Shown here piece by piece: positions 14,146 through 28,958 of a stretch of DNA of 64,000 nt. The notes beneath the pieces are model-generated. The model had not been told where the DNA came from. It ran no database searches and saw only the letters and a program-made list of their open reading frames with translations. The position numbers were made by a program, and so were the translations under genes. Position 1 is the first letter of the stretch, and every line of letters begins with the position of its first letter. Origin of the DNA: Elusimicrobiaceae bacterium (GTDB lineage Bacteria > Elusimicrobiota > Elusimicrobia > Elusimicrobiales > Elusimicrobiaceae). Where the stretch lies: positions 1 to 64,000 of the forward strand of contig JAFXGO010000008.1 in NCBI GenBank assembly GCA_017520185.1, read 5' to 3'.

Positions 14146-17100
14146 TTATTTCATCACTTTTTGTAGTAGATTTTCATAAGTATCTACCACATCGTATTGT
14201 ACTGCCTGGGTACTGATGGCCCTAAAGTGTTCTCTAGCACAGGCAATTTTGGCCGATTCTGCTTCACGTAGTTCTAAAGAATCCATCGTTCCCTTCGTTT
14301 CAGCTACAAAGAAAATATGTTTTACTTGGCCTTCGTGGAAAGCAATAGCCCAATCAGGGTTATAATCACCCACAGGCGTGGAGATTTTAAATCCGCTAGG
14401 TAATTTAACATAAACGGCTACTTCCTCGCTGTTATCCAGTTTTTCGGCGAAGTTCTTTTCTTTGTCTGAATCATAGCGCAAATAGTTATATAAATGATTT
14501 TTTACCTCTACAGCATTTACGCCTAATTGTCCTTTAATTGTATTTTCGGTAAAAATACTGGTATTATAGGAATCCTCTAATTTATTGTAGGCTATATGTT
14601 CTATAATAGCGGTAGCCTTCTCATCGTTAATAAGTTTGACTGTTTTAAGAATAAAATCTTCAGGATTGAATTTAAACTGGTCAAATTGTGTTTTATCTAT
14701 TCCTTTAAGGATTTCCACCACTGCAGAACGGGTTAAACCTGTTCCTTCCACTATTTTGCCCACTAAATCATACTTGATATTTTTATTAACGGTGACTTCG
14801 GCAGACAATGTGCGTCCGCCTTCATTGCGCGTAAATGCCTCTCCTTTTTCTAATTGTTCTTTAGACTCAATACTATCCATCTTCCCTTTTTCTATTTGAA
14901 AGACGATTTTATTAATTTGTAGTTTTGTATTGATGGCATTGATGGCTTTTTTAATTAGTTCATCCGTTTTAAAATCCACTATATAGATAGATTTTGCATT
15001 AATTTTTTGCCATAACATTTGAAATTCTTTACTGGCTAATTTATCTTGATTAACAGAGAGTTCCACATTGTTAGCACGGGCATTATCAATTTTTAGTTTG
15101 CCAGTGGTTAAGCGGTCCAGTAAAGCCACTAAATCTGTTTGATACGGCATAATTTCATCAGGAAGGGTTAAGGTTCCTGTTTGTTTGTCTTGATAAAATT
15201 CAGGAGTTAATGCGCCTTTTTTAAGGTATCCTTCCCCAATCAATCCTTCTACTATATCATCTGCCAGATTTTCGTCAATTTTGCGTTCTTCTCCTTGAGT
15301 ATTTCTTAAGATAAGCCCAATGAAAGATTCTGCCTTCAGTTTAGTGATGCGATGCTTAGAGTCTTCTGCTAATTCCTGCTGTAACCCTTGAGCAAAGGAT
15401 TCATAACTTTCGTTTGCAATAACAGTTAGCACATTGATATTGTGCACTTCTGCTCCAATAGCATTTTCATCCTGTCTTTCTCCGTTCTTGTTAACGGACA
15501 AACGTAACCCACGGCCTACTTCTTGACGTTTACGTATTTCAGCACTACTTTCTTTAAGCGTACAGATTTGGAATACGTTCGGGTTGTCCCACCCTTCACG
15601 TAGAGCGGAGTGACTAAAGATAAACCGCACCTTAGATTTAGCATCTTTGGTAGATAGAGAAAGTAAGGATTCTTTGTCCTTCATAATCAGGTCATACGCA
15701 TCCACGTCATCGGAGGTTCCTTCTTTTTTATTAGCAATCTTACTCGCTACCATACGTCCCTTTTTATCAATAGAAAAATATCCCGCGTGCGTGGCCTGTG
15801 AAGTAATGCTCTCTAAATACGCTTTGTAAGATTCATTTAGGAATAAATCCGCCTTAATTTGGTTTAAAACGTTGTTATATTCCTCTTCAAAAATTTGGGC
15901 ATATTCTCCGTTGGCTTGATTGCCGTTCTCATCATACTGGCGGTATTTGGCCACTTCGTCAATAAAGAACAAAGACAACACTTTTATTCCTTTCTCATAG
16001 AGTTCTTTTTCTTTATTTAGGTGGGCCAAAATAGTTTCGCGTATTTGAATACGGCGTAGTTGCCCTTCGGCTACTTTACCCATTACATCCCCTACGTATA
16101 ACCGTTTGCCGTTTGTAAATTCCAAAGAGTTATCCCGTGCATCTATACTGGCCACTACATAACCCGTTTTGTATTCAGGCAATTCATTGGATAAATCATA
16201 CAGGTTATCCCCTTGTTTGACGGCACGAATCACAGGACGAATAGAAGTTTTACCTTTTACTTCAAATTCTAACGTAGCCGTGGGGTATTTATCTTTAAAA
16301 ATATTGATGGCCGATAAATATAAATAACCATCTGTACCCGTACTGCCACTCGCAGTAACCCCTACTACTTCAATCTTTTTGACTAATTTTTTGTTATAAG
16401 CATCAATAGCATCTAACCGATAGACCACGTTGTATTCTTTTTTAGGAGTGGCCGAGTAGCGAAGGGTTAGTAACGGCTTAAACTTTTTCAAATTTTCACT
16501 TGTTGCTTCACCTTCTACTGATTGCGGTTCGTCAATAATTAAAACAGGGTTTGTGGCAGCAATCACTTCTATAGGACGGCGGTATTTGAACTCTTCTAAT
16601 TCCATTGTAATACGGCGGGCATCTTTTCCACGTGCATTAAACGCTTGGGAGTTGATAATCATTACGTTAATACCACTATCCATAGCAAATTGTTCCAGGT
16701 CGGTTAGACGGGCGGAATTGTAGATGAAAAACTTAATTTTCTTGCCGTATTCTTCAGCAAAATGGTCTTGGGTAATTTGGAATGACTTATATACCCCTTC
16801 ACGGATAGCCACAGAAGGGACAACTACAATAAATTTGCTCCATCCATAACGTTTATTTAACTCGTAAATGGTTTTGATATACGTGTAGGTCTTACCTGTC
16901 CCCGTTTCCATTTCTACGGTTAAATTATACTTCCCTTCCAGGGAGTCTGATAAGCGGATTTGGTTGCGTTTTTGAACTTCGTGCAAGTTTTTAAGCACGT
17001 CTTGCTCTACGGCAGGTAATAAACGTTGATTATTAAAGCCCGTTTGTTCAATATCAAACTGTCCTGCGGCTACGCGCCCCATATCTACCAAGTAGGAAGA

Positions 17101-17187
17101 TTGCAAATAGGGTTGCCCTGCAAATACATCACAGACGGCAAGGGAGGCATCTTCTTGAAATTTTTGATGTTTAAATTGCAATTTCAT
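14146..17187 (-). CDS. res: Type III restriction endonuclease subunit (Res)
   Basis: 1013 residues. An SF2 translocase has Walker A TGTGKT (95-100), DEPQ in place of DEAD (219-222), a SAT motif and motif VI in RKRQEVGRGLRL. The C-terminal PD-(D/E)xK nuclease is visible as NPDWAI with D945, then VAETKGT with E963 and K965. With Mod it forms the type III complex that translocates or slides on DNA and cuts near unmethylated sites. It starts 10 bp after mod with AGGGG upstream. Last gene of a four-gene minus-strand operon. Confidence 0.92.
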   Translation of the reverse strand: MKLQFKHQKFQEDASLAVCDVFAGQPYLQSSYLVDMGRVAAGQFDIEQTGFNNQRLLPAVEQDVLKNLHEVQKRNQIRLSDSLEGKYNLTVEMETGTGKTYTYIKTIYELNKRYGWSKFIVVVPSVAIREGVYKSFQITQDHFAEEYGKKIKFFIYNSARLTDLEQFAMDSGINVMIINSQAFNARGKDARRITMELEEFKYRRPIEVIAATNPVLIIDEPQSVEGEATSENLKKFKPLLTLRYSATPKKEYNVVYRLDAIDAYNKKLVKKIEVVGVTASGSTGTDGYLYLSAINIFKDKYPTATLEFEVKGKTSIRPVIRAVKQGDNLYDLSNELPEYKTGYVVASIDARDNSLEFTNGKRLYVGDVMGKVAEGQLRRIQIRETILAHLNKEKELYEKGIKVLSLFFIDEVAKYRQYDENGNQANGEYAQIFEEEYNNVLNQIKADLFLNESYKAYLESITSQATHAGYFSIDKKGRMVASKIANKKEGTSDDVDAYDLIMKDKESLLSLSTKDAKSKVRFIFSHSALREGWDNPNVFQICTLKESSAEIRKRQEVGRGLRLSVNKNGERQDENAIGAEVHNINVLTVIANESYESFAQGLQQELAEDSKHRITKLKAESFIGLILRNTQGEERKIDENLADDIVEGLIGEGYLKKGALTPEFYQDKQTGTLTLPDEIMPYQTDLVALLDRLTTGKLKIDNARANNVELSVNQDKLASKEFQMLWQKINAKSIYIVDFKTDELIKKAINAINTKLQINKIVFQIEKGKMDSIESKEQLEKGEAFTRNEGGRTLSAEVTVNKNIKYDLVGKIVEGTGLTRSAVVEILKGIDKTQFDQFKFNPEDFILKTVKLINDEKATAIIEHIAYNKLEDSYNTSIFTENTIKGQLGVNAVEVKNHLYNYLRYDSDKEKNFAEKLDNSEEVAVYVKLPSGFKISTPVGDYNPDWAIAFHEGQVKHIFFVAETKGTMDSLELREAESAKIACAREHFRAISTQAVQYDVVDTYENLLQKVMK

Positions 17188-17196
17188 AGAAAACCC

Positions 17197-19167
17197 CTAA
17201 ATTACTTTAACTTTGGTATCAGGAGAAAGCAATTTGAAGAGTTCCCCTACGTTAATCTTGGCAGGGCTGTCCGTAAATCCTGCATCACGGAATACCACCC
17301 GCAACGGCTTTTTGGCGGCAATGTGGCGGATAATATCTTCGGTGACATTTTCATCAAAACAAGCCACTAAATCCCCATTATTAACCGTATGGATAGTATA
17401 AGAACCCACTTTTTCAGAAGTGTGCGGGTAAGATAACGGCAAGCCCCACTCTAACATACAACCATAAAGCAAGTCCATATCGTTGCGGTCTTCTTTGATG
17501 TTACTGGTCATTTGAGACAGTAAATCTTGTGTGTAGTCGGCAGGGTTATAATAAACATCTTTCATATTGCTGCCTGCCAGTTTAAACACACGGAAACCAC
17601 CGTCAAAATTGGATTCTGGATGTTCCTCTTTAATTTGTTTAGCGGCCCGTCGGATACGTTCTTTACCGATTTCACAAATATTCTTATATCCTGCTTTGTA
17701 TGCTTCGCTTGTTTTATCACACTCTTCGGGCAGTTGTACCATAATAAATTTACGATTACCACCATCTTCTGCGTTGAGTCTCATAACAGCGTGGGCAGTT
17801 GTGGCAGAACCAGAGAAGAAGTCCAAAAATATTCCTTTGGAATCGTTTAACATTTTGGTTAATTGTTTAATAAGGCGAACTGGTTTTTTACCATTTTTGT
17901 ATGCAATGCCTCCTTCTTTGGAAACATTACCCATATCAATATAAAACCCGCTCCACCAATCTCCACGAATTTTACGAAGACCATCTTCTTGATAATAGCC
18001 GTCAGTTATACCCCACGAATCTTTCAAGCGTAGCAACTGCCGCATATTCCCTTTGGAGTCTAAGGTTAGGAGATACTTTTTCCCTTTTCTATCTATTTCT
18101 TTCCAATATCCCTGTCTTAATTCTGTTATATCTTCACAATCAGGAGATTTATCAGAGCGGACAATTTCGGCGAGATGAGAGCGGACAATTTCGGCGAACT
18201 CTTCACTTTTTTTGTATGCTTCTGCTAATTTTAGAGGTTTTTTATTATTACAATCTTTTGGAAACCGATAATCATACAACTCACTTAATTGCCCAATTTC
18301 TCCATTTGATTTTAAGAATAAACTATAGTGTTCATCATATTCTGGTCTTAAGTCATAAAGTGGGCACTTTGCAATATCTTGGTGGCCATCTTTAGAATAA
18401 CATAAGATATACTCTGCATTTTTGACAATATTTCCATCCTGGGCGGCTTTCACTTTCATCCCTTGTGTTGTACTCATTTGACAATGAATTGTTGTAACAA
18501 AATTCTCTTCTCCAAACACTTCATCACATATTTTTCTTAAATTTTCAACTTCATTATCGTCAATAGAAATAAAAATCACGCCATCGTCAGTTAACAAGTT
18601 GCGAGCAAGTTTTAAGCGCGGATACATCATAGAACACCAATCACTATGAAAACGCCCATTAGAATCGGTATTTTTGACGAGTCTATTTCCTTCTTCATCT
18701 ATTCGTTCGCCCGATTCTTCATACTCTTCCTGGGACATTGCAAAATCATCTCTGTAAATAAAATCATTCCCCGTGTTATAGGGCGGGTCAATGTAAATCA
18801 TTTTTACTTTGCCTAAATAACTTTCTTGTAAGAGTTTAAGCACATCTAAATTGTCGCCTTCAATATAAAGGTTTTGGGTAGTATCCCAATTTACACTGTC
18901 TTCTTTGCAAGGGCGGAGCGTTTTGCGAATTGGTGTGGCGGCTTCCAAGATGGCCTGTTTTTTACCTACCCACGTAAAATCGTAGGTTTCACGGTTATCT
19001 ATGGCAGAATCAGATAAAATTTGCCTAAGTTTATCAAAATCTATGGCTTTTTTAAGTGTGCCATTATCATCTTTGGCTTCGGTTAGCACTTCAGGGAATA
19101 GTTGCCCAATTTTAGCAATGTTTTCCTGTGTTAAATCTTTGGTTTCAAATTTCATCTTCTCCGTCAT
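17197..19167 (-). CDS. mod: Type III adenine-N6 DNA methyltransferase (Mod)
   Basis: 656 residues. The motif order is beta class: catalytic DPPY (127-130) precedes the AdoMet-binding FSGSAT (451-456), with the target-recognition region between. It methylates one strand of an asymmetric site and guides Res. In the target-recognition region EIVRS occurs twice (about 326-338) from a 24-bp in-frame tandem repeat. GGGAGG precedes the ATG. Lies between the DUF4391-like gene and res. Confidence 0.92.
   Translation of the reverse strand: MTEKMKFETKDLTQENIAKIGQLFPEVLTEAKDDNGTLKKAIDFDKLRQILSDSAIDNRETYDFTWVGKKQAILEAATPIRKTLRPCKEDSVNWDTTQNLYIEGDNLDVLKLLQESYLGKVKMIYIDPPYNTGNDFIYRDDFAMSQEEYEESGERIDEEGNRLVKNTDSNGRFHSDWCSMMYPRLKLARNLLTDDGVIFISIDDNEVENLRKICDEVFGEENFVTTIHCQMSTTQGMKVKAAQDGNIVKNAEYILCYSKDGHQDIAKCPLYDLRPEYDEHYSLFLKSNGEIGQLSELYDYRFPKDCNNKKPLKLAEAYKKSEEFAEIVRSHLAEIVRSDKSPDCEDITELRQGYWKEIDRKGKKYLLTLDSKGNMRQLLRLKDSWGITDGYYQEDGLRKIRGDWWSGFYIDMGNVSKEGGIAYKNGKKPVRLIKQLTKMLNDSKGIFLDFFSGSATTAHAVMRLNAEDGGNRKFIMVQLPEECDKTSEAYKAGYKNICEIGKERIRRAAKQIKEEHPESNFDGGFRVFKLAGSNMKDVYYNPADYTQDLLSQMTSNIKEDRNDMDLLYGCMLEWGLPLSYPHTSEKVGSYTIHTVNNGDLVACFDENVTEDIIRHIAAKKPLRVVFRDAGFTDSPAKINVGELFKLLSPDTKVKVI
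18155..18202 (-). repeat. 24-bp tandem repeat in mod
   Basis: GAGCGGACAATTTCGGCGA starts at 18155 and again at 18179, a period of 24 bp. Copy-number change would add or remove 8 residues in frame within the target-recognition region. Confidence 0.8.
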
Positions 19168-19176
19168 AAATCCTCC

Positions 19177-19827
19177 CTAAATCTCCCTTAAAATCTGTTC
19201 TAATTCGCGCACTTTGCTTTTAAGTTCCACTTGGCGATTGTATTGTTTCTCTCTACGGATTTGGGCTTCCAACTTATCAATCTTGACTTGTATTTCCCGT
19301 TGCAGGATTGTTTTTTCCACCCGCTCAGCCATTTTTTTGCCATCTTCTAGGGTTAAATTTTCGCCTGCTACTGCCTGCACTAAGTTTTCATACACGTTAT
19401 CAAGTGTAATTCCCGCAATGGTAAAATTGAGGTCTTCTTTTGTCATCCAAGGTGTATAAAAATAGCGTTTAATGGAGTAATATGCCTTGTTAGAGCCGTC
19501 TTTTAACTTGAAGGCTATACCTGCCTTAACTTCGTTATTATGCTCTAAAATAAACAGAATATGATAGGGTAGTTCCTTATCCCATTGCAGTAAAACACGC
19601 TCATCTAATTCAGGTTGATTAAGTAGCAAGTGAAAAACTTCTATTTCCGTTACGTATTTTCCTTTGCTAATGTTGAGTGTGTCTTCCGCCAATTTATAAG
19701 CCCAATGCACAGATTTTACTTGCTGATTAAATGCTTTGCGGACACTTGGCGTAAAATGTAGTTGTGTGGCTAATTTTTCTTTAGCCACACGCCGATTAAA
19801 AAATGTCTGCGAGGGAAAATTAAACAT
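19177..19827 (-). CDS. DUF4391-like protein of the restriction operon
   Basis: 216 residues from ATG 19827, which gives the family-like MFNFPSQTFFNRRVAKEKL start; an upstream ATG at 19854 would overlap the helicase. The C-terminal third (QVKIDKLEAQIRRE onward) is a coiled coil. Genes of this type sit beside type III mod/res genes in many bacteria, and the biochemical role is unknown to me. A bridging subunit between helicase and Mod is a guess. Confidence 0.65.
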   Translation of the reverse strand: MFNFPSQTFFNRRVAKEKLATQLHFTPSVRKAFNQQVKSVHWAYKLAEDTLNISKGKYVTEIEVFHLLLNQPELDERVLLQWDKELPYHILFILEHNNEVKAGIAFKLKDGSNKAYYSIKRYFYTPWMTKEDLNFTIAGITLDNVYENLVQAVAGENLTLEDGKKMAERVEKTILQREIQVKIDKLEAQIRREKQYNRQVELKSKVRELEQILREI

Positions 19828-19832
19828 ACGCC

Positions 19833-22800
19833 CTATTTGATGACAAAGAAACAAATAAGTTCAAAGTCATCTAACCCTTTGATGTTTCCTGTAAGGGCCG
19901 TTGTCCCGCCAGGAGTAAATAAACTATCAATATCGGACTCTTCTTTTACGTTGATAATGCTTTTAATGGCATCCGATAGAAGTTCCGAATATACCTGCAT
20001 ATTTTTGCCGTCTTGTGTTTCTGTATTGAAGGCTTTACAAAGTTCTTGGTTGGGAAGTGTTTTCCCTTTGCATAAAAGACGCATTTTGTCCAAAATGGAT
20101 TTGGGGGCTAAGTAATCATAAACTACTTGCCCATTCATATCTACATACACCATATAGAACGGATGTAGGCCGTTCTTTTTATCTATATTGATAGTAGAAC
20201 TCACATTGCGTAATACATAGACCACGCCAGGAGGACAATCAGCCGTGCTTTGCAAAACAGCGTGTAAGCCGTGTGGGGCAAGTTCAGCATTAGGGTTTTG
20301 CTTCATATATTCCAGTAAGTCCAAGCGAAACTCATTTAACCCTAAATCCATAATAGATACGCTTTCGTTTACATCTTCCAAGTCCACTACTTCAGATTGC
20401 AAGCGTTCCAGTTGTTTTTTGCGGTATTCCAAATCGCCCTTTTCTTCGGCGTTGATAAGGTCATCGTCCCCCGTTGATGTCATAACAGATATTTTCATAC
20501 GGGTTTCTACACGACTTTTTAACTGGATATAGTCATCTAATGTTAAATCAGGCCAGAAGTTGACCATCTGGATACGTTCGTTTTTGCTACCAATACGGTC
20601 TATACGACCAAAACGCTGAATAATGCGTACAGGGTTCCAGTGAATATCGTAGTTGATCAGGTAGTCGCAATCCTGTAAGTTTTGCCCTTCTGAAATACAG
20701 TCCGTAGCAATTAAAATATCAATGTTATTTTCGGTATCTTTGGGGAAAAGTATGTCTCTTTCTTTTGAAATAGGCGAAAATAAAGTCAAAATATGGTTCA
20801 AATCACTGCTGACCGCATATTTAGGCAAAGTGGTTTTTGCATTGCCTGTACCCGTTACAAGGGCTGTGTGAATCCCGTATTTTGCTTTTATGCGATGAGC
20901 AAGGCTGTTGTATAGGTATTGTGCCGTATCTGCAAAAGCCGTAAAAATGATGATTTTTTTGTTATTGGCATTGATAGGATTATCTATTTTTTCTCTTATT
21001 TTCGTAATTAAATCTTGCAGTTTAGAATCGTGCTCTGGGGTGATAGGTTCTAATAATGCGGAAATACGCTTAAGAATTTCCGAGTCGGCTATCAATTCTT
21101 TACGCCAGGATTGATAATCCATATCGGCCAAATCTACTTTTACTTTTGAAGCAGAGGCGAATAAATCTTCATTTTGGTCATCAAAATCTAAATCTTCAAG
21201 GTCATCAAACTCATCAACCGTATGTTGGGCGCCTTTGGAGTGTTCAAATTGATTTATCGTTTCTATATTATCTTCAATAAAGTTCTGAATACGTCCAACG
21301 GTCAGGCGGAAAGATTCTACACTGCTTTCCAAACGTTTAAGCAAATTAATGCTCATTAAGCGTCTTAAGCCTTCCTCCCGTCCTACACGGGTTAGATTCT
21401 TGTTAGATTCTATGTATTTATCCATCCGACTGGGATGAATGAATTTGGAAGGGATATAGACCGCCAAAGTAAGAAGGCCTAGCAAGGAGTAAATATTGTT
21501 AAAAGATAAGTCTTCACTTTGTAAATCTGTCAGTGTGGAGCGAATAGATAGTGGTTTGTTACGCGTAGGAAATTGCCCTACTTCTGCCATATTGTAATAC
21601 TTTTGTATATGCTTACGAGAACGAGCGATAGTAACGCTATCTAATACTTCAAAGAAGTCAAAATCTAACATTTTGAGAAGTCTTTCTGTTTTGCGTTCTT
21701 CAGCAGGCAATAAGCTCCATTCGTTAAATTTGCTTTGAGCACGAGAAAAAATTGTTTCAATAGAGTGTTCAGTTTTTAACTTTTCGTTGATAATAGCAGG
21801 AGTGCCTTCATAGGCTAAGGCTAACTGATTTTTAAGGTCCACAAAGCGATTATTTACAGGGGTAGCGGACAACATTAATACCTTGGTTTTAACTCCAGGG
21901 CGTATAACTTGATTGAGTAAACGAGAATATCTGTTTTCTTTGCCATCTTTGCTAATTTGGCCACCATTACGGAAATTGTGGCTTTCATCTATTACAATTA
22001 GGTCATAGTTTTCCCAGTAAATGCGAGATAAATCTATGCCATTAGAATGTCCTACAGTACGAGATAAATCCGTGTGATACAATACATCATAATGAAGACG
22101 GTCATTGGCGATGGGGTTATTCTTATAATTGGCTTCAAAAGTTGTCCAGTTATTAGATAGTTTTTTAGGACATAAAACTAGGATATTTTTGTTTCTATCG
22201 TTATAGTATTTCATTACCGCTAAGGCAGTGAATGTTTTTCCAAGACCCACGCTATCGGCTAAAATACATCCATTGTATGTTTCTAACTTGTTAATAATGG
22301 CCAAGGCCGCATCTTTTTGGAAATCATATAGTTTATTCCAAATTTGACTATCTTTAAATTTAATGGCTTCATTGGGGAGAACATCCTCGGAAATATCGTT
22401 TAAGAACTCGCGAAAGATATTATATAAAGCAATAAAATACACGTACTGGGCGGGATTCTCTTTATAAGCCGCTGTTATGCTATCTATTACTTGTGCCGTA
22501 ACATCTTGGAAATGCTCTTCGTCTGCCCAAAGTTGATTGAAATTATCCAAATAACGTTTGCTTGCAGGGTTGTCTATTTTTGTTACTAAATTGGGGAGAT
22601 TATTTCCCTTTGCTTCTCCTAAGTCTACCGTAGTGAATCCGTGAATTGGAAGGTAGGTTACAGAGTCAGAAGTTGATATATTAATGAAGCCGTTCATAGG
22701 TTCATTGCTGTTATTTGACTTGAAAACTACTTTATCTCTTATCCAATTAACACATTCTTGTGCAATGGCTTTTTGGGTCAGCTCATTGCGAAGTTTAATT

Positions 22801-23063
22801 TCAAATTCAGTGCCGTAAATACTACGTTCGCGAGACAATTGCGGAATATAGAATTCCCTTTGTTCTTTGGGGGCTTTTTCTGTAGAAAATGTGGGTGAGG
22901 TGAAAATAAAACGTAGTTCAGAGATATTTTCTAATTTTTGTTTTAAGGTGCGATAAGCATAAATGGAAAAATAAGCCGCGGCAATACTCAGTTTGCTGTC
23001 TTTTTTTATCTCTTGTTCTAAATCATCTTTTAACCGTTCATTAACATTATCAATTACTTTCAT
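19833..23063 (-). CDS. SNF2-type helicase with N-terminal PLD-like region, defence associated
   Basis: 1076 residues from ATG 23063 (AGGTGG upstream); a longer reading to 23198 would cover the palindromic block. The N-terminal 150 residues resemble the phospholipase-D-like module of defence helicases, but no clear HxK pair is visible. Helicase motifs are SVGLGKT (271-277), DESH (359-362), LSATPVNNR, ATDCISEGQNLQ and QRFGRIDRIGS. It is the promoter-proximal gene of the helicase-DUF4391-mod-res operon and may be needed for restriction or act as a separate effector. Confidence 0.85.
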   Translation of the reverse strand: MKVIDNVNERLKDDLEQEIKKDSKLSIAAAYFSIYAYRTLKQKLENISELRFIFTSPTFSTEKAPKEQREFYIPQLSRERSIYGTEFEIKLRNELTQKAIAQECVNWIRDKVVFKSNNSNEPMNGFINISTSDSVTYLPIHGFTTVDLGEAKGNNLPNLVTKIDNPASKRYLDNFNQLWADEEHFQDVTAQVIDSITAAYKENPAQYVYFIALYNIFREFLNDISEDVLPNEAIKFKDSQIWNKLYDFQKDAALAIINKLETYNGCILADSVGLGKTFTALAVMKYYNDRNKNILVLCPKKLSNNWTTFEANYKNNPIANDRLHYDVLYHTDLSRTVGHSNGIDLSRIYWENYDLIVIDESHNFRNGGQISKDGKENRYSRLLNQVIRPGVKTKVLMLSATPVNNRFVDLKNQLALAYEGTPAIINEKLKTEHSIETIFSRAQSKFNEWSLLPAEERKTERLLKMLDFDFFEVLDSVTIARSRKHIQKYYNMAEVGQFPTRNKPLSIRSTLTDLQSEDLSFNNIYSLLGLLTLAVYIPSKFIHPSRMDKYIESNKNLTRVGREEGLRRLMSINLLKRLESSVESFRLTVGRIQNFIEDNIETINQFEHSKGAQHTVDEFDDLEDLDFDDQNEDLFASASKVKVDLADMDYQSWRKELIADSEILKRISALLEPITPEHDSKLQDLITKIREKIDNPINANNKKIIIFTAFADTAQYLYNSLAHRIKAKYGIHTALVTGTGNAKTTLPKYAVSSDLNHILTLFSPISKERDILFPKDTENNIDILIATDCISEGQNLQDCDYLINYDIHWNPVRIIQRFGRIDRIGSKNERIQMVNFWPDLTLDDYIQLKSRVETRMKISVMTSTGDDDLINAEEKGDLEYRKKQLERLQSEVVDLEDVNESVSIMDLGLNEFRLDLLEYMKQNPNAELAPHGLHAVLQSTADCPPGVVYVLRNVSSTINIDKKNGLHPFYMVYVDMNGQVVYDYLAPKSILDKMRLLCKGKTLPNQELCKAFNTETQDGKNMQVYSELLSDAIKSIINVKEESDIDSLFTPGGTTALTGNIKGLDDFELICFFVIK

Positions 23064-23105
23064 TATTACCCACCTAATCCTATTATCAGGTGGGAATAAA
23101 AACGG

Positions 23106-23350
23106 CCATTTAAGACGCGTCTCTGATAGTGCCGCAGTCATAAATAGCCGTAGTTCGCATATAAAAATATATGCGAACATTCGGCACCATATACCCAAGG
23201 GATCAGCTCGAGTATATGGCGCCTAAACCAGCTATTTTTGGACTATCAGAGAACTTCGTTTGATTGAAGCCCACCCTATTTCTTCAATAGGATTCCAAAA
23301 ACAGTATTAATTGTATAAGCAGGTTCTATCTCTTAAAACCTGCTGAAAAT
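23106..23350. other. Nested palindrome block; candidate replication origin or structured leader
   Basis: Outer stem TCTCTGATAGT (23120-23130) pairs with 23242-23252. Inside it AAATAGC (23142-23148) pairs with 23231-23237. It encloses a 26-bp hairpin, GTTCGCATATA and its complement (23153-23178), and a CCATATAC/GTATATGG hairpin (23187-23219), giving a branched cloverleaf-like fold. GTGCCG (23129) and CGGCAC (23182) could form a pseudoknot. Two more hairpins follow: ATTGAAG/CTTCAAT (23263-23288) and AGCAGGTT/AACCTGCT (23318-23344). It lies between the helicase and rep starts and does not code. Confidence 0.7.
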
Positions 23351-23521
23351 CGTTATATTCACCTCAAATATAGGGTATATCTTATCATAATACCATATTT
23401 GTTCTCCCTTTTGATATGTAGCATTTATTTTTATATTTCCCTTAAATTTTCATCATTTTTTCTCTTTTTTTAGGAAAAATTCTCCTCTGGAAAACAACTT
23501 AATAAGACTTTTTCTCTCTCG

Positions 23522-23763
23522 GTAAACAAATAAGGTTTACATTTATATATTAAGTAGAAAGGAAGAATATGTTTAGACGGTAAAATTGAAATTGGTTTAC
23601 ACTTATACATTAAGTAGAAGGACAAGATAGAAGAATGTAATAAATTTTGTGGAAACTAAAATCATTTCATAATGCCAAACAGAGAGCAAATAACGTTTAA
23701 AATTATCTATCTTTCTAAAGAAAAATTAAAAAAGGTTTACACTTGTATATTTGTTGAACACTA
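23522..23763 (+). repeat. Iteron-like direct repeats upstream of rep
   Basis: Three GGTTTACA(C/T)TT(A/G)TA-type repeats start at 23534, 23594 and 23734. The first two also share ATTAAGTAGAA. An inverted GTAAAC/GTTTAC pair lies at 23523-23540. Repeat spacing is 60 and 140 bp. They may bind Rep or a repressor. The rest of 23350-23815 holds no gene. Confidence 0.6.
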
Positions 23764-23815
23764 AAAGGTTCCCAGAGCAAAAGTCTGGATTTTAACTGAA
23801 GAGGTGTCAACAAAT

Positions 23816-24892
23816 ATGATTGACCGAATGAAAGGTGGAATTGAACCACAAGATGTAAAAGAAATATGGACAGGAAGTATAGAGTTATTGAAAGAAGACC
23901 AAATTATGAATCCGAAAAATAAACCCGTTGTGTATTATCATCGCCAAAAACATCAGTTTGTTTTTGATGTAGCCGTACCTAGATGCTTATTTGGAAATAA
24001 TCTAGCAGAAGCAACAGATGTAGACTTAGATAAAATTGTGTTGGAAATTCAAAAGGCATTCAGATATAAGGGGTTAGACGTGTCGAAAGAAGCCATCTAT
24101 AATGCAGGGATTTATTACTTAGAGTACGGCAAGAACATTATTTTACCTATCAATGTGTGCTTGCTTGCCTTGTTTAAGCGGCTAGGGAAATGTTTAACCA
24201 AAGGATATAACGAACCCTCTTTTCATCACTATAGAAAAGGCAGAAGGGAAGGGTATAAGGTAGGTATAAGTCTTGAGAGCAAGGATGTGGGATTCTATGA
24301 CAAAACAACAAAAGAATTGGTAAGCAAAAGTAAGCACAATAATTCGAATAAAGAAGTTTATTGTAATTTGCTACAGAAGCAAAAACAAGTGCTGAGATAT
24401 GAAGCATCTTTCTATGGGAGTACTTCCGTAAAGAGTAATTTGTCCAAGTTTAAAAAATGCGATGGAAAATTTACTTTACGGGATGTATGGGATAGTAAAT
24501 TAGCACAGGCCATTCTTGTAAGTGCCTTAAATGAAGTGGTAGATAACCTTCCCCCTGCAGGTCATTCTAAGGAGATGGAACTCAGAGAGATAGCACAGGC
24601 AATAGAGCAAGGCGTGTCTGTAAGTGATATTGCCCACTATAAAGGGATGGAAGCATTGGAAAGAAGGCACGGAGCAACCACCATTAAAGAACTGTTTAAC
24701 CCTATAGCAAAGCGATATGGCGGACAAAGAGCACAGTATGGGCAGTACACCACAGCCAAAGGGAAGCAAGCAGAACTAAGTAAATATTTTAAACCTAGGC
24801 GAGAATATTTAATCAAAAAAATCATACGGACGGTTAATAATTTTAAGCCTATTCGGGTAAATGGCAAAACCAATGAACTAATTGAAGGATAA
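23816..24892 (+). CDS. Phage gene II/X-like replication initiator
   Basis: 358 residues from ATG 23816; GAAGAGG lies 11 nt upstream, and GTG at 23804 is less likely. The start MIDRMK, the FYDKTTKEL block (160-168), the LRYE block (193-196) and a basic C-terminus fit the filamentous-phage gpII/plasmid Rep family that nicks one strand to start rolling-circle replication. The nicking tyrosine cannot be assigned by eye. It lies downstream of iterons and palindromes, as expected for rep next to its origin. Could instead be a relaxase-like protein. Confidence 0.55.
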   Translation: MIDRMKGGIEPQDVKEIWTGSIELLKEDQIMNPKNKPVVYYHRQKHQFVFDVAVPRCLFGNNLAEATDVDLDKIVLEIQKAFRYKGLDVSKEAIYNAGIYYLEYGKNIILPINVCLLALFKRLGKCLTKGYNEPSFHHYRKGRREGYKVGISLESKDVGFYDKTTKELVSKSKHNNSNKEVYCNLLQKQKQVLRYEASFYGSTSVKSNLSKFKKCDGKFTLRDVWDSKLAQAILVSALNEVVDNLPPAGHSKEMELREIAQAIEQGVSVSDIAHYKGMEALERRHGATTIKELFNPIAKRYGGQRAQYGQYTTAKGKQAELSKYFKPRREYLIKKIIRTVNNFKPIRVNGKTNELIEG

Positions 24893-27478: not shown

Positions 27479-27514
27479 ATCTACACAAAAAAGTATTAGA
27501 ATATGTGTAGATTT
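27479..27514 (+). promoter_or_regulatory. Candidate AbiEi operator over the abiE promoter
   Basis: AATCTACACA (27479-27488) and TGTGTAGATT (27505-27514) are perfect inverted repeats flanking a TAGAAT-like -10 (27498). AbiEi-type antitoxins are known to repress by binding inverted repeats at their own promoter. Confidence 0.55.
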
Positions 27515-27533
27515 GAAAATAGGTGTTTGGGAA

Positions 27534-28100
27534 ATGGAACAACTAATTGGATATTTTACGACTAAACAACTTATACAGAAAGGACTTACTACATACAAGA
27601 TTCGCTCTTTGTGTGCACAGGAGATATTGCTTAAAATCAAAAAAGGTCTTTACCGAAATACAGAAATGTTCTACCAAGACCAAAGTTTTCTGGACGTATG
27701 TCAGGCAATTCCAACGGCTGTTGTTACCAGTTATTCCGCCTTGTCCTATTACGGACTTACTACCTTTATACCACAAGAAGTTTTTATTTGTATTCCCCAG
27801 AACCGAAAAATTACGAAAATAGATTATCCGCCTACTGTTCAGTACCGCAGGGATGTTGCTCTATTTAAAGAGCATATTGTTACAGAGAGACGAGATAAAT
27901 ATTCTTTTCGCATTTATGATATGGAAAAAGTAGTTTGCGATACCATCAAAAATCGCAAAACTATGGGAATGGACACGGTAAAAGAGGTTTTGCGAGAATA
28001 CCTAAAACACAAAGATAATAATTTACTGAAACTCTATGAAACCGCTAAAAAATGTAAAGTATTTGATGTCCTAGATGAATTCCTAACGGTAATGAGGTAA
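27534..28100 (+). CDS. abiEi: AbiEi-family antitoxin
   Basis: 188 residues from ATG 27534. The N-terminal winged helix (FTTKQLIQKGLTTYKIRSL, about 10-60) includes the LLKIKKGLYRN wing typical of AbiEi. A C-terminal antitoxin domain has YDMEKVVCDTIKNRK. It is a type IV antitoxin that represses its operon and counters AbiEii. It ends 3 nt before abiEii. Confidence 0.85.
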   Translation: MEQLIGYFTTKQLIQKGLTTYKIRSLCAQEILLKIKKGLYRNTEMFYQDQSFLDVCQAIPTAVVTSYSALSYYGLTTFIPQEVFICIPQNRKITKIDYPPTVQYRRDVALFKEHIVTERRDKYSFRIYDMEKVVCDTIKNRKTMGMDTVKEVLREYLKHKDNNLLKLYETAKKCKVFDVLDEFLTVMR

Positions 28101-28103
28101 ATT

Positions 28104-28958
28104 ATGCGACAAATTACAAATTTTGGGGCTTCAAACTTTAGAAAACTGTTACACCAGGCCAAAATCAATAAATTGGATTTTAATACATTACTAAAACGTT
28201 ATCTGCAGGAACGTTTCTTGTATCGATTATCCAAAAGTGCTTACAAAGATAATTTCATCTTGAAAGGCGGATTGTTGCTTGTTACTATTGATGTGCCTGC
28301 TTCCCGCCCAACAATGGATATTGATTTATTGACCCAGAAACTAAGTAGTAGCAAGATAAAAGAGGTCTTTAAAGAGATTTTGGCTATACAGTACCAAGAT
28401 GGTGTAACCTTTGATGGGGATTCTTTGCAAAGTGAACTTATCACCAAAGATGGGGCTTATCACGGTACGCGTCTTAAATTTAAAGCATATTTCAATGGAA
28501 GCAAGAATGATATGAGTATTGATTTGGGCTTGGGTGATGTGGTAGTCAATCCGCGTACTATTACTTTTCCTACTATTTTGAATGAAGATGCCCCTATTTT
28601 GACGGCGTATTCGCTAGAAACAATTATAGCGGAGAAAATGGAAGCGATGGCAAAATTATTACACGCCAACAGTCGTATGAAGGATTTTTATGATGTGTAT
28701 ACAATTCTTCATACCTATTCTTTGTCAGAAGAGTCCTTAATACAGGCTATTAACATCACTTTTAAAAACCGCCAAACTTCTTTAGAGAAATTACGAGCGG
28801 TATTAACACCTAATTTCTATAATTTAGATATAAAACAACCTCAATGGGAGGGATTTTTAAAAAAGAATAAAATTACTCAAGTTCCTGCAGAATTTAGTCA
28901 GGTTATAGCAGATATTGCCTTAAATCTGCCTAAAACTTTTATTAAAGAGGAAAAATAG
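28104..28958 (+). CDS. abiEii: AbiEii-family nucleotidyltransferase toxin
   Basis: 284 residues. DNA-polymerase-beta-type nucleotidyltransferase motifs are KGGLLL (54-59) and RPTMDIDLLT with D72 and D74. Later come MSIDLGLGD and the helical EKMEAMAKL...RMKDFYD block. Relatives transfer nucleotides to tRNA or other targets and arrest growth on phage infection. No broken motif is visible, so the toxin looks intact. Confidence 0.88.
   Translation: MRQITNFGASNFRKLLHQAKINKLDFNTLLKRYLQERFLYRLSKSAYKDNFILKGGLLLVTIDVPASRPTMDIDLLTQKLSSSKIKEVFKEILAIQYQDGVTFDGDSLQSELITKDGAYHGTRLKFKAYFNGSKNDMSIDLGLGDVVVNPRTITFPTILNEDAPILTAYSLETIIAEKMEAMAKLLHANSRMKDFYDVYTILHTYSLSEESLIQAINITFKNRQTSLEKLRAVLTPNFYNLDIKQPQWEGFLKKNKITQVPAEFSQVIADIALNLPKTFIKEEK

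Follow-up and report, generated by a model that had tools for sequence, protein, structure and literature searches.

What is the nest of palindromes at 23106-23350, between an HKD/Snf2 helicase gene and a rep-like gene in a 64,000-nucleotide (nt) window of contig JAFXGO010000008.1 from an Elusimicrobiaceae bacterium? Three answers suggest themselves: an origin of replication, a mobile element, or the structured leader of an mRNA. We find that the element is very likely the 5′ leader RNA of the defense operon that begins with the helicase gene, and that it is predicted to work as a bistable transcription attenuator. It is, apparently, a member of an undescribed RNA family of host-associated Elusimicrobiota. 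Below, we present the evidence for the RNA, the two folds that it is predicted to adopt, and the readings that compete over its signal.

A covarying RNA on the minus strand

The palindromes listed in the earlier note are real and lie where it placed them (Table 1). Their folding exceeds chance on both strands: for the 245-nt stretch, the plus strand reaches -75.6 kcal/mol, as against -46.4 in shuffles (z -6.5), and the minus strand -95.8 kcal/mol (z -8.3); none of 200 shuffles folded as well on either. In the window, the leader ends 33 nt before the ATG (23063) of the helicase gene, and including these 33 nt brings the minus strand to -108.8 kcal/mol (z -10.3). What had to be corrected is the extent of the fold: the hairpins stand, and on the minus strand the conserved unit spans 23096-23315, leaving the hairpin at 23318-23344 outside the core model.

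A blastn search with 23095-23360 matched 58 of the 66 genomes of the genus, usually several times each, at a cut-off of E up to 1 where the weakest matches are uncertain; 27 aligned copies have about 220 nt in common and little beyond. The covariance model R1, whose searches covered Elusimicrobiota genomes, recovered copies (E 0.01) in 61 of these 66 genomes and in 92 of the 341 genomes of the phylum, mainly in two genera of the same family and in a second family elsewhere in the phylum. The window copy scores 196.3 bits with R1 (E 1.3e-54) as part of the training set, and its relatives were also found independently by blastn. A third family contributed one divergent copy (L142, 1501-1678), which lacks the P4 arm and has the private helix in place; P4 may thus be an added domain.

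Covariation across the copies gives a strong signal. Across 72 distinct sequences, aligned by fitting to a model that contains most helices, the private helix excepted, the 63-pair structure has 94.9% of its cells paired; shuffles give 75.5%, and sliding the structure lowers the figure to 37-48%. Of the 63 pairs, 52 have changed on both sides. The private helix, which the search model did not contain, shows double changes in 9/9 pairs, with 92.4% of cells paired. In the minus-strand sense, the helix cells include 332 G-U as against 44 A-C combinations, which identifies the minus strand as the RNA.

The position of the copies points in the same direction. Among 161 distinct copies, an open reading frame (ORF) of at least 60 codons begins on the same strand within 300 nt of the 3′ end in 148 and within 100 nt in 117, the median start being 57 nt past the element; in many copies a Shine-Dalgarno sequence follows closely, and the start codon comes 30-45 nt downstream of the element. 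A promoter-like extended -10 motif, TGnTAnnMT, lies upstream in 78 of 160 copies, as opposed to 12.3 in shuffles. The earlier suggestion of a structured leader RNA of the defense operon is therefore upheld by the minus-strand sense, the gene directly downstream in nearly all relatives and the massive covariation.

Regarding the upstream side, we dropped TACAAT at the 5′ edge as a candidate -10 box, since many copies have TGnTATAMT boxes 15-65 nt further upstream. Copies with a distant promoter (L030, L036-L038, L040, L041, L048, L051, L075, L129) have an extra conserved hairpin close to AAGCCTTAAACGTGGCTT before the core, often with an AGGAG motif. A leader peptide in these long forms, with AGGAG upstream of the hairpin, was considered and set aside, as inspection by eye revealed no consistent start codon.

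Two mutually exclusive folds

The outer and inner stems of the earlier note both exist, and together they constitute the antiterminator, an arrangement incompatible with another fold that the note did not list. In that other fold, P1, a nearly invariant 11-bp stem with 98.8% of its cells paired, forms along with the terminator, which shows double changes in 9/13 pairs and 89.1% pairing. In the antiterminator fold, the P4 and P5 arms are enclosed by the private helix and by an inner helix, in which the P1 3′ strand pairs with the terminator 5′ strand. The P2 loops across copies are mostly GAAGA, GCAGA, GUAGA or GAAA, i.e., GNRA-like, and could offer a tertiary contact or a peptide site.

Both parts expected of an attenuator are present. 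First, an intrinsic terminator stands before the gene, and its U-tract is found in most of the 161 copies. Second, the computed antiterminator is exclusive with it and of comparable stability: when the private helix was enforced in ViennaRNA, the inner helix formed in 154 of 157 copies, and the antiterminator fold is the less stable by 1.0 kcal/mol at the median, with quartiles of -1.8 and +3.9 for antiterminator minus terminator and fold totals of about -57 to -102 kcal/mol among the copies listed. For the window copy, the terminator fold comes to -86.7 and the antiterminator fold to -82.7 kcal/mol. If the private helix is left out, the antiterminator loses to the terminator fold by 13.6 kcal/mol. 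The complementarity between the P1 3′ strand and the terminator strand scores at least 7 in 69.6% of copies versus 1.7% of shuffles, and the window copy itself has a double change from C-G to U-A between them.

The private helix is specific to each copy. The best pairing of its strands averages 9.3, as against 5.2 when partners are dealt among copies. In the genome G071, 21 copies have 21 different private helices; this is the most variable part there, at 1.57 bits per column compared to 0.7-0.8 for P4 and P5 and 0 for P1. Its strands in G071 pair over 7-9 bp in cis, whereas in trans 7 bp is reached in 4 of 420 combinations.

These features lead us to propose the following mechanism. In the OFF state, P1 (CUGUUUUUGGA:UCCAAAAAUAG) would hold, and the terminator (ACGGCUAUUUA:UAAAUGGCCGU) with its U-tract would halt the polymerase ahead of the gene. 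For the ON state, P1 would open, freeing its 3′ strand AAAUAGCUG to pair with the terminator 5′ strand CGGCUAUUU, and the copy-specific helix of 9-11 bp would lock this antiterminator around the P4 and P5 arms. Once freed, the 5′ strand of P1/P2 could in some copies also base-pair with the hairpin in which the ribosome-binding site is buried: the P1 5′ strand is complementary to the post-terminator region in 38% of copies versus 4% of shuffles, and in the window it is chiefly the P2 5′ strand that matches, the hairpin loop AAUAGGAUU having 9 nt of complementarity to AAUCCUAUU (23294-23286). Most economically, a ligand, protein or RNA would stabilize or open the P1-P2-P3 domain and thereby decide the fold while the polymerase passes. 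Attenuation is read here from anatomy and energetics; that termination is regulated, which fold is the default and what the signal is are likewise inferred.

Certain points weigh against this reading. The covariation of the inner antiterminator helix is weak (4 pairs, 7 cells) because both strands are nearly invariant. The ViennaRNA energies exclude pseudoknots, and the private strands could pair as one in the OFF fold and shift the balance. Copies within one genome are related, such that sequence counts do not equal event counts. Finally, an ortholog of the helicase in G074 (60% identity) has no leader, which indicates that an operon of the window type can do without one.

Table 1. Positions of the predicted RNA features and of the operon in the window
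Feature	Position	Strand	Details
Outer pair, 11 bp	23120-23130 with 23242-23252		100% match
Inner pair	23139-23148 with 23231-23240		CATAAATAGC with GCTATTTTTG
Confirmed hairpins	23153-23178; ~23183-23223; 23251-23293; 23318-23344		last two smaller
Core leader RNA	23096..23315	-	read 23315 to 23096; model R1 of 222 positions
P1-closed domain	23232..23304	-	CUGUUUUUGGA (23304-23294) with UCCAAAAAUAG (23242-23232)
P2 hairpin	23273..23293	-	100% paired; double changes in 6/6 pairs
P3 hairpin, variable	23251..23272	-	basis fold only
Private helix, 5′ strand	23242..23252	-	UCUCUGAUAGU
Private helix, 3′ strand	23120..23130	-	ACUAUCAGAGA; within apical loop of terminator hairpin
P4, 17-bp arm	23183..23223	-	double changes in 13/13 pairs
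P5 hairpin	23153..23178	-	double changes in 11/11 pairs
Predicted terminator	23098..23151	-	ACGGCUAUUUA (23151-23141) with UAAAUGGCCGU (23112-23102), then U-tract
Predicted antiterminator, 5′ strand	23229..23237	-	AAAUAGCUG; 9 bp with terminator strand CGGCUAUUU (23150-23142)
Hairpin burying probable ribosome-binding site	23069..23094	-	AGGUGG
Upstream hairpin, variable sequence	23318..23344	-	outside core model
HKD+Snf2 helicase	19833..23063	-	PADLOC C3a139, 1.9e-120
Rest of operon	14146..19854	-	DUF4391 protein, type III methyltransferase, type III restriction enzyme

Genes downstream of the leaders and the rep neighborhood

The leaders precede several kinds of genes. In a sample of 67 downstream proteins, not random and favoring copy-rich genomes, 38 match type IV pilin-type models; the others include glycosyltransferases of families 2, 8 and 9, a polysaccharide pyruvyl transferase, sulfatases and outer-membrane proteins, as well as three Snf2-type helicases and one EcoRI-type methyltransferase. 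In the second family, the cargo comprises a glycosyltransferase 8, EcoRI-type and N6/N4 methyltransferases, a Snf2/ResIII protein and pilins. Scoring of up to 150 candidates in each genome gave copy numbers from 0 in G028 through 3 in the 1.4-Mb genome of the window, 18 in G084 and 46 in G071 to at least 129 in G070, a 1.7-Mb genome (L109-L113) with at least 150 pilin-like genes. There are 59 pilin genes in the window's own genome, 112 in G071 and 57 in G028; the last of these, with no leader, indicates that the leader is not obligatory for pilin genes. One RNA family appears to control much of the cell surface along with some phage defense in uncultured gut bacteria, and it offers a handle on how bacteria with more than 100 pilin genes choose which to express.

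Some leaders occur close together, namely at 1529-1742 and 4120-4336 in L126 and at 1268-1459 and 1501-1698 in L141, both of the latter lying in tandem before an EcoRI-type methyltransferase gene.

On the other side of the leader lies the rep-like gene (23804-24892), which has no Pfam, PHROG or NCBIfam match and no convincing PDB match. It is preceded by three iterons, GGTTTACAYTTRTAYATT, at 23534-23551, 23594-23611 and 23734-23751; the iterons are kept in the rep relatives L004, L005 and L015-L019, reading much like GGTATACACTTATACATT. A leader with its cargo is divergent to rep in the window, L018, L019, L021 and L022, L018 and L019 being close relatives, and the cargo differs, being restriction-modification (R-M) in the window and a glycosyltransferase and others elsewhere. 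The proximity to rep is therefore not entirely a coincidence, and leader-gene pairs may spread in part by way of such islands. Elsewhere in the window (27513-28958), genes for an AbiEi-like protein and AbiEii, a type IV toxin-antitoxin system, adjoin an integrase. Further, a 105.8-kb contig (G034:C5; L007 1-126 and L012 1501-1626) carries the start of a rep-like gene at each end, the two being oppositely oriented.

Candidate signals and relationship to known systems

If the leader is an attenuator, its signal might be a ligand or protein that acts on P1-P2, or else P4 loops of different transcripts might pair with each other. The foremost of these versions, which we hold tentatively, is a metabolite riboswitch of a new class, in which P1-P2-P3 binds a small molecule and the rest serves as the expression platform. 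The nearly invariant 5′ strand of P1, the GNRA-like loop of P2 and the large regulon would fit it; c-di-GMP switches likewise sit in front of surface genes. However, there are few invariant unpaired residues to form a pocket, and a single ligand leaves the private helix and the palindromic loops unexplained.

Somewhat less favored is a leader under protein-controlled antitermination, either by a NusG paralog of the LoaP type or in the manner of N and boxB. Its targets, accessory surface and cargo genes, are those typical of RfaH/LoaP-type control, and the P2 pentaloop GAAGA presumably resembles the lambda boxB loop. Against it, no candidate protein linked to the leaders came up, though none was sought.

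A third version, which we consider doubtful, is that the leaders sense their own transcripts, with P4 loops kissing and the private helix restricting strand exchange to leaders of the same gene. It draws on the loops of the P4 arm, which is about 15 bp in the family overall. Unlike the private helix, this arm ends in a small set of loops that recur among copies. A 6-nt palindrome occurs in 14 of 32 distinct P4 loops (2000 shuffles: mean 1.9, maximum 7), in contrast to 0 of 83 loops of P5 and the P1 domain, and one of at least 4 nt occurs in 24 (shuffles: 11.0, maximum 20). Related loop variants are not independent, yet six different hexamers occur: UCAUGA, UAAUUA, UUAUAA, UUGCAA, UUCGAA and UAGCUA, besides the tetramers GAUC and AGCU. 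The window loop, CUGAUCC, has a palindrome of only 4 nt, GAUC (23206-23200). Such self-complementary apical loops are expected of kissing-loop homodimer RNAs, and the pattern suggests loop-loop kissing between molecules. Were this so, pairing between molecules would set termination, and each pilin, sugar or restriction gene would have a feedback or on/off memory of its own, made of RNA only and free of cross-talk. Loop type as a predictor of gene class yielded no clean split, and an anticodon-like reading of the CUNAU loops was dropped, as palindromy better fits the UUGCAA, UUCGAA and UAGCUA loops.

Readings that deny the leader a regulatory role fare far worse. That it is a non-autonomous mobile element (MITE, PATE or attC-like) merely accumulating is highly improbable: its copy number does vary from 0 to at least 129 and it occurs on islands, but copies about 30% divergent keep the fold with strong RNA covariation, their orientation is fixed before a gene and ribosome-binding site, and most show little similarity beyond the core. 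Least credible is the origin that the earlier note suggested first, of the rolling-circle or filamentous-phage kind (or a single-strand origin) and recognized by the adjacent rep protein. In its favor, only 470 bp separate the hairpin cluster from a gene preceded by three iterons, and five islands have the leader divergent to rep. Against it, genomes contain tens of copies that lie away from rep, the G-U asymmetry and fixed pre-gene position indicate RNA, rep relatives of 64-83% identity (L003/L020, L015, L016, L017) lack the element, of which L015-L017 still keep the iterons, such that element and Rep gene are not conserved together, and the gene II/X identity proposed for rep was not recognized by family search.

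With regard to the attenuator reading, known systems provide partial parallels. Searches with seven loci (E up to 5) gave no Rfam covariance-model match on the element, T-box and known riboswitches included; phage and plasmid collections had no match at the element, only to the helicase gene; and one exact pattern match among 2.9 million viral contigs lacked the element. Full-text literature searching of partial coverage found no description of this leader, and, as far as searched, two features are undescribed: a fold balance within a few kcal/mol in most copies that is set by a helix of copy-specific sequence, and the self-complementary arm loops.

The proteins encoded downstream in the window are of known families, C3a139 (HKD+Snf2) and type III R-M, and the C3a139-type ortholog in G074 differs in standing without a leader. 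The Termite-flg and Termite-leu motifs (RF01729, RF01730) are likewise candidate structured RNAs, for which termite hindgut sequences are the only reported source (PMC2864571); the leaders match neither Rfam model. The HIV-1 dimerization initiation site and other palindromic kissing loops have a self-complementary loop of up to six nt on a stable stem (PMC7357161); the candidate kissing loops here are instead on bacterial chromosomal mRNA leaders, with several types in one genome. There is also a likeness to intrinsic-terminator attenuators and riboswitch platforms such as T-box leaders, which likewise place exclusive terminator and antiterminator folds before a gene. The present leaders differ in matching neither the T-box nor any other Rfam model, in an antiterminator that is predicted to be locked by a private helix in each copy, and in numbering at least 129 in a 1.7-Mb genome, which is very high for a cis-regulatory RNA.
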